A stretch of 32,496 bases of DNA from Alphaproteobacteria bacterium (GTDB lineage: Bacteria; Pseudomonadota; Alphaproteobacteria; Acetobacterales; Acetobacteraceae): the NCBI GenBank assembly GCA_026400775.1, contig JAPLOK010000197.1:1-32496 (forward strand). Direction: 5' to 3'. The notes below the pieces were generated by a model that worked only from the letters and a program-made list of their open reading frames with translations, did no database searches and was not told where the DNA came from. A program made the translations under genes and the position numbers. This document shows positions 4,161 to 18,558 of this stretch, one piece after another. Position 1 is the stretch's first letter; each line of letters opens with the position of its first letter.

Positions 4161-4769
4161 TCACCCTTCCGGCGGCGCATCGGCGCGCGCGGCATGGCGC
4201 AGGCCGGAGACCAGGTAGTCCCAGCCGGTCAGCAGCGTAAGGATCGCGGCCACCCAGAGCATCACCTCACCGATCAGCCCGATCGGCAGCCAGCCCAGGC
4301 CGATCAGCGGGGCGGCCGAATCGCCGACCAGCAGCACGCCCAGCGCGCCCATCTGGAAACCGGTCTTCCATTTGGCGAGCTTGGTGACCGGCATGCCCAC
4401 GCGCAAGGTCGCCAGATATTCCCGCAGGCCCGAGACCAGGATCTCGCGCAGCATGATGATGATGGCCGGCAGCAGCGCACGGTCATCGAGGCGTTCGAAG
4501 CCCACCAGCACCATCAAGGCGGCCGCAACCAGCAGCTTGTCGGCGATGGGGTCCAGCATGATGCCGAAGCCTGAGGTGATGCCGCGGTCGCGCGCGATCT
4601 TGCCGTCGAAGTAATCGGTGATAGCAGCGGCAGAGAACACCGCGCAGGCGGCGAGATCCGCCCATGGCGCGCGCAGCATCACCAGTGCCACCAGCAGCGG
4701 GATGGCGGCGATGCGCGAAATCGTCAGCAGGTTGGGCAGAGAGAGCAGCACGCCCCGCCTATAACCCAT
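4161..4769 (-). CDS. pgsA: CDP-diacylglycerol--glycerol-3-phosphate 3-phosphatidyltransferase
   Basis: LPNLLTISRIAAIPLL; CDP-alcohol motif DYFDGKIARDRGITSGFGIMLDPIADKLL. Confidence 0.94.
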   Translation of the reverse strand: MGYRRGVLLSLPNLLTISRIAAIPLLVALVMLRAPWADLAACAVFSAAAITDYFDGKIARDRGITSGFGIMLDPIADKLLVAAALMVLVGFERLDDRALLPAIIIMLREILVSGLREYLATLRVGMPVTKLAKWKTGFQMGALGVLLVGDSAAPLIGLGWLPIGLIGEVMLWVAAILTLLTGWDYLVSGLRHAARADAPPEG

Positions 4770-4848
4770 GCCGCGCGTTACGTCAGGGGTTGGCGCCGCC
4801 GCCGTCATGGGCTTGGCGGCGCCGCCGCGGGGCGCGATACGGGTGGCG

Positions 4849-5865
4849 ATGCGAATTCTCTACTATTCCGTGCATTCTGTGCTCGAGCATGACGAGGTCA
4901 CGCTGCTGCGCAGCCTCGGGCATAAAGTGTTTCCGCTGGGCGAATATTTTGATGCGGCACTCGGCCAGGGCATGCGGCCCATGGCCGATCCCGGCCCCGG
5001 CCATGCCGCGCTGTTGGAACGCTTCCACGCCGAGGGCTGCCAGTTCCGCCGCTTCTCCGCACCCGAGGAGACGGTGCTGACACCAGGCTTCGTCGCGCTG
5101 TTCGACCTGGTGGTGGTGATGCACAGCGCTGAGTTCATCGAACACCACTGGGGGGTGCTGGCTGGCCGGCCGATCATCCTGCGCACCATCGGGGTCGGCC
5201 TGCCCTGGCGCGAGCCGCGAATCGCGGCCCTGCGCGCGCGCGGCGTGCGCGTGATCCGCTATGCCGAGACCGAACGCCACGCGCCCGACTACGCCGGCCA
5301 TGACGCGGTGATCCGCTTCGCCAAGGACCCGGCCGCCTTCGATGGCTGGCAGGGCGATGCGGCGCAGGCGCTGATGTTCTCCATGGCGTTCCGCGAACGC
5401 TTCCCCGAAGAATGCGCGCTGTGGGAGGCAATCGCCCCCGGCCTGCCGCTGGTGCTGGGTGGCGCTTCGAACGAGGGCATCCCCGGCGCCATCGGCTTCC
5501 AATTGCCGGATCAGCAGATGGCGCTGCTGCGCACGAGCCGCGCCTATCTCTACTGCTCGGGCCTGCCCATTCCCTACACGCTGAACTTCATCGAGGCCTG
5601 GATGATGGGCATCCCGCTGCTGGCGCTGGACCCTGCCCTGGTGACCCGCCCGCACAACTGCACCGAATGGCCCGGCCTGATCCGTCGCGGCCAGGATGCG
5701 CTGCTCGCGCGTGACCCGCGTGAGGCACGGGCCATGCTGCGCAACCTGTTGAACGACCATGGCCTGGCGCGGCAGATCGGCCAGGCGGGCCGCGCGCGGG
5801 CGATCGCGCTGTTCGGCACGGCGGTGATCGCGCCGCAATGGCAGGCGGCGCTGGCCTGGGCATAG
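4849..5865 (+). CDS. glycosyltransferase family protein (GT1/GT4-like)
   Basis: MRILYYSVHSVLEHDEVTLLRSLGHKVFPLGE N-terminus; NFIEAWMMGIPLLALD and RARAIALFGTAVIAPQW C-terminal features. Confidence 0.65.
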   Translation: MRILYYSVHSVLEHDEVTLLRSLGHKVFPLGEYFDAALGQGMRPMADPGPGHAALLERFHAEGCQFRRFSAPEETVLTPGFVALFDLVVVMHSAEFIEHHWGVLAGRPIILRTIGVGLPWREPRIAALRARGVRVIRYAETERHAPDYAGHDAVIRFAKDPAAFDGWQGDAAQALMFSMAFRERFPEECALWEAIAPGLPLVLGGASNEGIPGAIGFQLPDQQMALLRTSRAYLYCSGLPIPYTLNFIEAWMMGIPLLALDPALVTRPHNCTEWPGLIRRGQDALLARDPREARAMLRNLLNDHGLARQIGQAGRARAIALFGTAVIAPQWQAALAWA

Positions 5866-5923
5866 TGTCCTGGCCGCGAAGTTCGCTGCTCTTCCCAGCG
5901 GGCTTCGCGGGTTACCTGGCCAC
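5865..5923 (+). repeat. 59-nt structured 3'-UTR repeat, copy 1
   Basis: GTGTCCTGGCCGCGAAGTTCGCTGCTCTTCCCAGCGGGCTTCGCGGGTTACCTGGCCAC; 50/59 identical to copy 2 (complement of 13311-13369); 15-bp stem CCGCGAAGTTCGCTG/CAGCGGGCTTCGCGG with two G-U wobbles. Confidence 0.8.
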
Positions 5924-5955
5924 TGAACAGAGAGCCGAGTGTCCCGAGAAGGAAG

Positions 5956-5973
5956 GCGCCGCTGATGCGGCGC
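5956..5973 (+). terminator. candidate terminator-like hairpin after the glycosyltransferase gene
   Basis: GCGCCGC-tgat-GCGGCGC perfect 7-bp stem; no strong T-tract follows. Confidence 0.4.
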
Positions 5974-6070
5974 ATTCCAGGCTCGTGGCACGCGCAATCG
6001 CCTTCATTCCACCCCAATCCCGCGCTGTAATCTGCGCCCGTTCCCCCCTCGCGGCACGCCGGAGGCCCTG

Positions 6071-8266
6071 ATGCCCGCGACCACACGCTGCCTGCTGCTT
6101 GGCGCCGCGCTGCTGCTGCCCTGGTGCGCGTTGGCGCAAGGTGATCTCAAGCCCGGGGTCGCGCCCGCCGCCCCCACGGCCCCGGCCACGCCGGAAGAAC
6201 AAAACATCCCCGACCCGCCGGCCCGCGCCGGGCGGCTGGCCGCCTTCTCGGGCGGGGTCTCCCTGCGCGACCCGAGCCAGCCGCAATGGCAGCCGGCCGA
6301 ACGCAACCTGCCGATCGCCACCGGCAGCGCGCTGTGGACCGAAGCCCGAGGCCGCGCCCTGCTGGAACTGCCCGGGGTGAATCTGGGCCTGGAGAGCGGC
6401 AGCGGCCTGGAATGGACCCGGCTGGATGATGCCGGCGCCGAAGCCAGCCTGGCCCAAGGCCAGGTCGCGCTGCTGGTCCACGCGCTGGACCCCGATGATG
6501 TATTGCGCATCGCCACCCCGCGCGGCACCGCCGAAATCCTCAAGCCCGGCCGCTATGTGATCGAGGCGGGCGCGGAGGGCGCGCCCTCCCGCGTGGTGGT
6601 GCAGCAGGGCCATGCTGCCTGGGTACAGCCCGATGGGCAGCGCATCCTCCTCGGCCCCGGCCGGGCGCTGGCCACCAGCGGCGAGGCGCCGGCCATCACC
6701 GCCGCCAGCGAGGCCGCGCCCATCCTCGCCTGGACGCTGGCCCAGGAACCCAAATTCAACGAAGTGCCGCAATCCGTCGCCCTGATGCCCGGCGGCCGGC
6801 AATTGGCGGAATTCGGCCGCTGGTCCCGCCATCCCGAATATGGCGATATCTGGCGCCCGGAGGTGCCCGCCGGCTGGGTGCCCTTCCGCGAGGGCAATTG
6901 GCGCTGGACCGACCCCTGGGGCTGGACCTGGCGGGATGCGCAGCCCTGGGGCTTCGCCACCTCGCATTACGGACGCTGGTTCGAATATGACGGCGCCTGG
7001 GCCTGGGCGCCGGTGGTGGTGGCAGCGCCTATCGTGGTGCTGGCGCCCAGGCGCTGGCCGGTCTTCACGCCGGCGGTGGTGGGCTTCTTCGGCCCGCCGG
7101 GACGCTGGGGTGGTGGGCGGCCGGTCGGCTGGGCACCGCTGGCGCCGCATGAACCCTTCTGGCCGGGGCGGCGATTCTCGGCGGGCTATGTGCAGCGGGT
7201 GAATGCCGGGGCGGTGCGCGACGCGCCGGGCTTGGGCCCGCGCTGGGCCGATGGGGCGCGCCGCCTGCCGCCGCCGGCCTTCGCCAATTGGCGTGGTGCG
7301 ACGGCGGTACCCGGGCCGGTCTTCGCAGGCGCGCGGCCGGTTGGGCCGAACCGCCTGCCCTTCAACGGCCCGCCCCAGGCGGCGCTGCCGCCACCTTCCC
7401 TGCCTCCGCGCCCGCTCGGCCCGGCGCCGCAAGCCGCGCTGGGGCCGCGCCCCGACCTGCCGCCCGCCCTGCTGCGGCCTGGCGATGCCGTGCGGCCCGG
7501 CGCGCCCAATGCGCCCATGCTACCGCCGCTGGCTGCACCAGGAGTGCGGCCGCCGGTCTTTGCGCCTTCGCCGGCGGCGCTGCCGCCTGGACAGAGGCCG
7601 GGCTTCACGCCGCCCTTCCAGACCCAGGTGCCGGGTGGGCCTCAGGTGGTGCGGCGCGCGCCCACCCTTGCCCAATATGCCGCCGCCGGGCGCGGGGCCT
7701 GGCGCGCGCGAGCCGATGGCGCCGCCGCTCGGGGCACGCCCACCCTTGCCCAATATGCCGCCGCTGGGCGTGGGGCCTGGCGCGCGCGAGCTGGGGGGAC
7801 CGCCACTCGGCGCACGCCCGCCTTCACCCAATATGCCGCCGCTGGGCGCCGCGCCTGGCGCGCGCGAGCCGATGATGCCGCCGCTCGGGGCGCGCCCACC
7901 CTCGCCCAATATGCCGCCGCTGGGCGTCGCGCCTGGCGCGCGCGAGCCGATGGCGCCGCCGCTCGGGGCACGCCCGCCCATGGGCAATATGCCACCACCA
8001 CCGGCCTTCGCGCCGCAGTTGGGCGGAAGGCCGCCCATGGCCAATGTGCCGCCACCACAGGTCTTCGCGCCGCCGCGCGCGCCCAGCCCGCCACCGCAGG
8101 TCTTCGCGCCGCCGCCAGCGATGCGGCCGCCGCAAGCGGCCAGCCCGCCGCCGGCCTTCGCCGCACCGCGCCCACAGGCGCCAAGCTTCGCGCCGCCAGT
8201 TCGGCCCGCGCCGCAGCAACAACAGGGGCCGGCCCCGCGGCGGTAATGGTCTTGCCTTCAGCCTGA
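6071..8266 (+). CDS. FecR-domain / DUF6600-like secreted proline-rich protein; probable frameshift near 7650, after which the natural frame ends at 8246
   Basis: Signal peptide MPATTRCLLLGAALLLPWCALAQ; FecR-like ITTGSALWTEARGRALLELPG-type segment; repeated WVPFREGNWRWTDPWGWTWRDAQPWGFATSHYGRWFEYDGAWAWAP as in DUF6600 proteins; Pro-rich coding moves from frame 2 to frame 3 after about 7650. Confidence 0.75.
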   Translation: MPATTRCLLLGAALLLPWCALAQGDLKPGVAPAAPTAPATPEEQNIPDPPARAGRLAAFSGGVSLRDPSQPQWQPAERNLPIATGSALWTEARGRALLELPGVNLGLESGSGLEWTRLDDAGAEASLAQGQVALLVHALDPDDVLRIATPRGTAEILKPGRYVIEAGAEGAPSRVVVQQGHAAWVQPDGQRILLGPGRALATSGEAPAITAASEAAPILAWTLAQEPKFNEVPQSVALMPGGRQLAEFGRWSRHPEYGDIWRPEVPAGWVPFREGNWRWTDPWGWTWRDAQPWGFATSHYGRWFEYDGAWAWAPVVVAAPIVVLAPRRWPVFTPAVVGFFGPPGRWGGGRPVGWAPLAPHEPFWPGRRFSAGYVQRVNAGAVRDAPGLGPRWADGARRLPPPAFANWRGATAVPGPVFAGARPVGPNRLPFNGPPQAALPPPSLPPRPLGPAPQAALGPRPDLPPALLRPGDAVRPGAPNAPMLPPLAAPGVRPPVFAPSPAALPPGQRPGFTPPFQTQVPGGPQVVRRAPTLAQYAAAGRGAWRARADGAAARGTPTLAQYAAAGRGAWRARAGGTATRRTPAFTQYAAAGRRAWRARADDAAARGAPTLAQYAAAGRRAWRARADGAAARGTPAHGQYATTTGLRAAVGRKAAHGQCAATTGLRAAARAQPATAGLRAAASDAAAASGQPAAGLRRTAPTGAKLRAASSARAAATTGAGPAAVMVLPSA
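7655..7996 (+). repeat. 78-bp (26-codon) tandem repeat, about 4-5 copies
   Basis: The CAATATG core recurs with AA at 7674, 7752, 7830, 7908 and 7986, exactly 78 nt apart; frame-3 unit is about ARPPLPNMPPLGVGPGAREPMAPPLG. Confidence 0.95.
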
Positions 8267-13310: not shown

Positions 13311-13369
13311 GTGGCCTGGTGACCCGTCAAGCCCGCTGCAAAGTGCAGCGGACTTCACGGCCAGGACAC
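13311..13369 (-). repeat. 59-nt structured 3'-UTR repeat, copy 2
   Basis: Minus strand GTGTCCTGGCCGTGAAGTCCGCTGCACTTTGCAGCGGGCTTGACGGGTCACCAGGCCAC, just after the katG stop. Confidence 0.8.
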
Positions 13370-13375
13370 CGGGTA

Positions 13376-15595
<2,220 letters not shown>

Positions 15596-15889: not shown

Positions 15890-17296
<1,407 letters not shown>

Positions 17297-17474
17297 GGCG
17301 TAGGAGAAATAGCGAGCGGCGCTTTATCTAGCGGTATCTGCAATTAGACCCCATATCAGTTTTCCAATACACCACCCTCGTGTCGTATGAGTGTCTTATT
17401 GATAATTTACGCACTATAGGCACCAGGTAACCATTACCCACCCCCAACAACAAAAAGAGCAGCCAGAAAACATC

Positions 17475-18386: not shown

Positions 18387-18478
18387 GTCGGAATAACAGA
18401 AGCGTAGACCTACGGTTGTTTGTGTCGGACAATCTCAGTCGATGCAGTTGCCACGTACTGCACTGCCGATATTACGGA

Positions 18479-18539
18479 CCAGGACGCCATCGAATGCGCG
18501 CATGTCGCCGAGGCGCGGTCCTATCGCCGGCCCGCGTAA
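18479..18539 (+). repeat. 61-bp direct repeat, right copy (orphan comM 3' end)
   Basis: CCAGGACGCCATCGAATGCGCGCATGTCGCCGAGGCGCGGTCCTATCGCCGGCCCGCGTAA; encodes QDAIECAHVAEARSYRRPA* versus QDAIERAHVAEALSYRRRA* in comM. Confidence 0.9.
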
Positions 18540-18558
18540 CCCGTGGCAGCATCAGGCC

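Follow-up and report, generated by a model that had tools for sequence, protein, structure and literature searches.

Stop-adjacent hairpins of Acetobacteraceae as the probable left arm of a TA-targeting, stop-regenerating mobile repeat

The Rhizobium intergenic mosaic element RIME1 is an intergenic repeat of rhizobia, about 108 bp long and built from two large palindromes. Among transposases, those of the IS630 type form a TA-targeting enzyme family. The CcrM-associated intergenic repeats (CIR) of Caulobacter and Brucella (Chen & Shapiro 2003) are alphaproteobacterial and intergenic, and as PMC2229807 presents them they measure about 110 bp, with a linker between two long inverted-repeat arms and GANTC in one arm, exposed at a loop; their mobility is called unresolved there. 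The RUP of pneumococcus is a 107-bp MITE with TA as its target, and it was proposed to move in trans by the transposase of IS630-Spn1 (PMC2229807, PMC3049150). The REP elements associated with RAYT transposases (PMC3733652) are dispersed palindromes that also form arrays.

The repeat considered here was met in a 32,496-nt contig of an Acetobacteraceae bacterium (JAPLOK010000197.1; this whole stretch is called the window), where a preliminary description had pointed to a 59-nt hairpin at the 3' ends of two genes. We propose that this hairpin forms the left arm (H1) of a mobile repeat that is MITE-like and non-autonomous, targets TA, regenerates stop codons and is probably mobilised by an IS630-type enzyme; we would put the probability of this reading at roughly 0.78. 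By description, the nearest known kind appears to be the two-arm repeats of the CIR/RIME type. RIME1 is alike in approximate size, in its two palindromes and in its intergenic location, with a different host range, and the two are likened by description only. The element shares with CIR the alphaproteobacterial hosts, the intergenic location, the size and the plan of two arms and a linker, again a likeness by description only; in contrast to CIR as the source portrays them, it has defined GTGTCC..GGACAC ends, a TA/CTAG target and a habit of landing at stop codons, and GANTC occurs in only about half of its second (H2) arms. RUP offers the mechanistic parallel, being a small repeat with a TA target for which IS630-type mobilisation in trans has been proposed. 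However, RUP shares terminal inverted repeats with a known IS, whereas the present element has no partner IS among the loci searched and consists of two separate hairpins. It resembles REP in its dispersed palindromes and arrays, but it is longer and bipartite and has neither a RAYT nor the GTAG/CGTC tag.

The features of the window that bear on this proposal are as follows.

4768-5865, forward strand: glycosyltransferase gene (Glyco_trans_1_2 by Pfam; orthologs in genomes G008, G002 and G006), host of copy 1.
5863-5864, forward strand: target dinucleotide TA, read from the sequence; with the element's first base it makes the glycosyltransferase TAG stop.
5865-5923, forward strand: arm H1 (copy 1), a 59-nt bulged hairpin, from its fold, its covariation and a covariance model match of 66 bits.
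5924-5938, forward strand: linker TGAACAGAGAGCCGA, from the profile alignment; the family consensus form is TGAAAACAAAGxGCTA.
5939-5991, forward strand: degenerate arm H2 (GTGTCCCGA..TCGTGGCAC), right end of the 127-nt element, from the profile match and fold.
13311-13369, reverse strand: solo H1 (copy 2) in sense to katG, with no linker or H2, from alignment, fold and profile match.
13376-15571, reverse strand: katG-type peroxidase gene (Pfam peroxidase), host of copy 2.

Alignment and a whole-genome BLAST search (E 1.6e-12) confirm that the two hairpins are 50/59 identical, and they make up the longest inverted pair within the window. Their positions are also as first described, each in sense orientation at the 3' end of its gene, and the two genes are unrelated. 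Copy 1 opens with the G that closes the glycosyltransferase stop codon (TAG, 5863-5865); copy 2 begins 6 nt after the TGA stop of katG and has no TA flank.

At copy 1 the full element extends over 127 nt (5865-5991), with H1, an A-rich linker and a degenerate H2. Positions 5865-5990 match from end to end a profile built from 45 full-length relatives, the window excluded (E 6.3e-15), and the fold of 5863-5993 has a z of -4.2; copy 2 matches the same profile over H1 only. A second strong hairpin had been reported downstream of both copies. At copy 1 this hairpin is H2 of the element itself, but at copy 2 the downstream hairpin folds no better than shuffles (z -0.18) and does not represent H2. 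The aligned loci give a family layout in which CTA is followed by GTGTCCTGCCC, H1, GATAAGCAGGCCAC, the consensus linker, GTGTCSCGA, H2 and TCGGGACAC, and then by TAG outside the right end. With modal lengths of 127 and 116 nt and outer ends GTGTCC...GGACAC, the element shows the traits of a MITE, namely a short (116-127 nt), non-coding body and terminal inverted repeats (GTGTCC/GGACAC). Arrays of two to four H1 units exist as well.

The sense strand of H1 folds well, with -35.4 kcal/mol for copy 1 (z -4.8 against shuffles) and -43.9 for copy 2 (z -5.8). The 15-bp stem originally drawn belongs to a real hairpin, but the outer GTG/CAC and CCTGG/CC(A/T)GG pair too, and the whole 59 nt make up a single bulged hairpin in which GTG/CAC is followed by a T.C mismatch and five pairs, then by four bulged bases on the 3' side and the long stem. 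The exchanges said to preserve pairing between the copies are present (C-G to T-A at 13/43, U.G to C-G at 19/37 and C/C to C-G at 25/31), but 14/42 changes from G-C to G.G, hence the compensation seen with two copies is partial. Over 50 distinct H1s, 91.4% of cells are paired; the figure is 81.6% for column shuffles and about 35% for slid controls, and pairs with double changes number 14 versus 9.0 in the shuffles (126 versus 47 cells). H1 thus covaries strongly as a structured, dispersed element; since column shuffles ignore relatedness, what they demonstrate holds for pairing across the family and not for single sites. In about half of the H1 copies, Watson-Crick pairs give way to a conserved 3x3 internal loop of the G.A/A.N/A.G type (columns 14-16 with 40-43 of alignment A4). 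Outside this loop, G.U outnumbers A.C mismatches by 33:11 on the sense strand, a ratio drawn from related copies that are not independent, and this faintly hints at pairing of that strand as RNA or as single-stranded DNA. Rfam gave no match in the window at the gathering threshold, and a permissive search of the relatives returned just sub-threshold miRNA noise, nothing credible.

The family is widely and unevenly distributed. A covariance model made from two sequences found matches in 74 of 398 Acetobacteraceae genomes, the window's own family, and in 36 of its 102 genera. The locus of the window recurs in G099 and in Limobrevibacterium gyesilva, which points to Acetobacteraceae as the family of the window. 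With a 50-sequence model (R2), used beyond the family, relatives also came to light in four further alphaproteobacterial families; in one of these H1 is 50 nt long and the copies number at least 14. Copy numbers reach at least 138 in G095, at least 35 in G384 and at least 28 in G099. A pattern scan of GTDB places the element in Siccirubricoccus, Limobrevibacterium, Neoroseomonas, Roseicella and Belnapia, and further in Acidocella, Rhodopila, Acidisphaera and other Acetobacteraceae. The search for additional copies that had been recommended thus gave very many in relatives and one clear extra in the genome of the window itself (516 contigs, 94% complete), where copies 1 and 2 are joined by a full-length inverted copy on contig 29 and the remaining weak matches are doubtful. 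TA stands at either end of this third copy, which supplies the TAG stop of a hydantoinase B gene; the Pfam match of that gene extends to the end of the profile. The plasmid and phage collections searched contained no match, and a literature search for the motif letters returned chance matches only. In IMG/VR the element occurs in 3 contigs only (L296, L297, L298), which are perhaps proviral or host DNA.

The flanks of 157 copies point to the target, CTA being the most frequent on the left and TAG on the right. To the left there is TA in 97/157 and CTA in 82/157; among the 105 copies with a defined right end, TAG follows in 60 and TA stands on both sides in 37, with departures elsewhere mostly of one base. 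About two thirds of these copies have something other than TA (CA, TG or GA) on at least one side. The ends also often abut other palindromes, so that target duplication is blurred; L292 has a perfect TA at both ends. The H1 end coincides exactly with a TAG stop in 24/157 copies and the H2 end in 15/105, 39 in total. Only four called genes have their stop at another point within an element, and five span one. Gene ends are TAG in 24 of 28 cases, versus one third expected under random insertion in genes (p 2e-8). The preliminary description had expected stop-adjacent placement in sense orientation; the bias for stop codons is strong, but no orientation bias accompanies it, the orientations relative to neighbouring genes being 28/28/27/23 over the 157 copies.

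Genes were called with a simple caller that erred on the strand of both host genes in the window, and the stop-codon result was therefore checked with Pfam. Domains were found in the called frame in 18 of 30 stop-coincident genes, and several of them reach nearly or fully to the stop: YchF 363/364, RNase J 346/346, PmbA/TldD 441/442, cytidylate kinase (Cmk) 204/209 and chromate transporter 275/279. DnaA and MutL at elements have complete C-terminal domains. Position and Pfam together show that elements occupy genuine stops of intact genes. Examples of essential or core genes whose TAG stop is formed by the element, and of convergent called gene pairs in which a single element supplies a stop to each gene with its two ends, are listed here.

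L079, 260-1744: dnaA, TAG stop formed by the element.
L121, 5369-6409: RNase J gene, TAG stop formed by the element.
L147, 2124-3218: ychF, TAG stop formed by the element.
L143, 861-2630: mutL, TAG stop formed by the element.
L098, 1532-1647: element between convergent genes, both stops formed by its ends.
L139, 612-738: element between convergent genes, both stops formed by its ends.
L110, 2522-2645: element between convergent genes, both stops formed by its ends.

That the element might instead truncate genes, with TAG arising by chance, was considered and rejected on the ratio of 24 to 4 and on the Pfam result.

Comparison with relatives gives a view of some of these sites without the element. 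In the congener G002 the glycosyltransferase ortholog is free of the element, and its stop at this codon is TAG; the ortholog in G006 also has TAG at this codon, followed directly by a different palindromic repeat (CAGGCTGCTGAAAAAC..), and that in G008 carries the element with TAA. The katG genes of G003, G006 and G007 are without copy 2. In G095, a composite is inserted at site A, the counterpart in G169 being GCGGGTAGCGCC; G169 lacks site B, and site D has a TAG stop versus TGA in G216. None of the empty/filled pairs compared was single and clean with both flanks aligned. As a side observation, the G006 palindrome in the glycosyltransferase TAG stop (CAGGCTGCTGAAAAAC..GTTTTTCAGCAGCCTG, L195 at about 2455-2640) is a third palindromic repeat.

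It was first suggested that the hairpin is a structured 3'-UTR RNA element, which would protect or end the host mRNA or bind an sRNA or protein. Several observations speak for it, including the strong sense-strand folding, the compensatory changes in H1, the excess of G.U over A.C and the sense placement of both window copies next to stops; the reverse strand of copy 1 even fits a simple terminator pattern twice. That scan, however, gave matches on the opposite strand only; on the strand of the host gene there is no intrinsic terminator, copy 1 being followed by TGAACAGAGAG, and no U-tract stands behind H1. Stops are found equally at either end of the element, the orientation is random, the third copy in the same genome lies inverted at its stop, and orthologous genes in congeners are missing the element. 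At the sole locus with an ortholog, copy 1 in G008, H1 differs at 6/59 positions (10.2%) versus 6.3% in the remaining intergenic sequence and about 5% in coding sequence, and there is no sign of purifying selection on H1. What stands of the original description is a structured, covarying and dispersed element with a real stop-codon association, carried by the covariation and the exact stop coincidences; a sense-oriented regulatory role is not supported, and we regard it as improbable. Because either end of the element is found at stops, the orientation is random and the glycosyltransferase codon is TAG even in a congener that lacks the element, the stop-adjacent position is a matter of target choice, the TA of CTAG with the stop regenerated, and not of a 3'-UTR role.

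Two further readings take the element as DNA. One would have it a functional repeat of the CIR kind, in which transposition belongs to the past and the GANTC sites of the arms act in CcrM methylation or in control of the cell cycle. The two-arm-plus-linker plan and the size agree with CIR as PMC2229807 describes them, and GANTC is present in 82/148 H2 arms versus 15/145 control stretches. Yet nearly half of the H2 arms, that of copy 1 among them, have no GANTC, and most family genomes searched are without any match, which means that methylation control can do without the element; we hold this reading to be quite improbable. The other, a REP/BIME element mobilised by RAYT (an HUH Y1 transposase), has the dispersed imperfect palindromes and tandem arrays on its side, and the earlier label of REP-like was apt as far as dispersal goes. 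The transposase that defines REP is absent, however, with the Y1_Tnp domain in 0/15 carrier genomes, the window's own included, and matches in 5 control genomes; the missing GTAG/CGTC tag and the 127-nt bipartite build also disagree, and we give this reading very little credence.

The preferred reading, a TA-targeting mobile repeat, can be put into a mechanism. The architecture, dispersal, covariation and lineage-specific presence of the repeat are shown above, and insertion at TA, usually within CTAG and with TA left at both ends, is supported by the flanks and the element-free relatives. In these GC-rich coding regions CTAG is rare, and stop codons offer it; 400 kb of G095 have 29 CTAG in coding sequence, 21 at stops and 58 in intergenic sequence, many of these in repeats. 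As position and Pfam show, insertion in the TA of TAG does no harm, since the element starts with G whichever way it lies and so restores TAG, and where a CTAG is common to two convergent genes both stops are restored. Mobilisation would probably occur in trans by an IS630-type transposase, through cut-and-paste by a TA-targeting DDE enzyme. The paired arms were probably kept in source copies since hairpin or cruciform DNA aids movement or survival, and after landing the hairpin tail at the 3' end of the host mRNA would be a by-product, although a hairpin behind a stop could act on mRNA ends.

IS630 elements of the carrier genomes have ends in which CTA is followed by GAGC.. or by GTGTTATGCC.., and they are flanked by TAG; one of them (L248) starts with GTGT. 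Their target and style agree with those of the repeat, but their ends do not. No autonomous IS with GTGTCC ends was seen among 30 IS630 loci or among all loci retrieved, and three carriers (G004, G008 and G084) had no IS630 domain match. As no IS630 with matching terminal inverted repeats occurs in this incomplete sample of 30 loci, we do not file the element as a proven IS630-type MITE. The internal ORFs tried as an autonomous partner were a pirin gene (L126) and unconvincing frames.

A mobile repeat of this kind could spread cheaply in gene-dense, GC-rich genomes where TAG stops supply the rare CTAG target, with the stop rebuilt in either orientation of the element, and this holds even for dnaA and other essential genes. 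There is a warning here as well, in that covarying, stop-adjacent hairpins can mimic regulatory 3'-UTR RNAs and yet arise from target choice. Now that ends and target sites are defined, the mobility of two-arm intergenic repeats in alphaproteobacteria becomes testable. On a more tentative note, a wider lineage of two-arm palindromic mobile elements may use TAG stops, among them the CTAG common to convergent genes, as regenerating landing sites, with distinct families (the GTGTCC, GAGC and CAGGCTGCTGAAAAA types) behaving alike; genomes might then acquire structured 3' UTRs time and again without damage to genes, and pairing at the RNA level might be kept.

The element and a sister family (GAGC..H..GCTTGAACAAAGACCTG..GAGC..H) are found fused head to tail at CTAG-like joints, and of the 85 TAG stops that 400 kb of G095 contain, 10 have AGC behind them. 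In the same genome the sister family lies at L217 (11303-11560) and L218 (16230-16500); it has the same bipartite build and CTAG joints, its ends are GAGC..GCTC (H..GCTTGAACAAAGACCTG..H), and fusions with the GTGTCC type are frequent. The window has other repeats as well. A 78-bp tandem repeat of 5 units, a multiple of three in length, lies inside a DUF6600 gene (7652-8041), and a 90-nt direct repeat, 78% identical between 17217-17306 and 18460-18549, is the 3' end of a Mg-chelatase/ComM-like gene recurring downstream.
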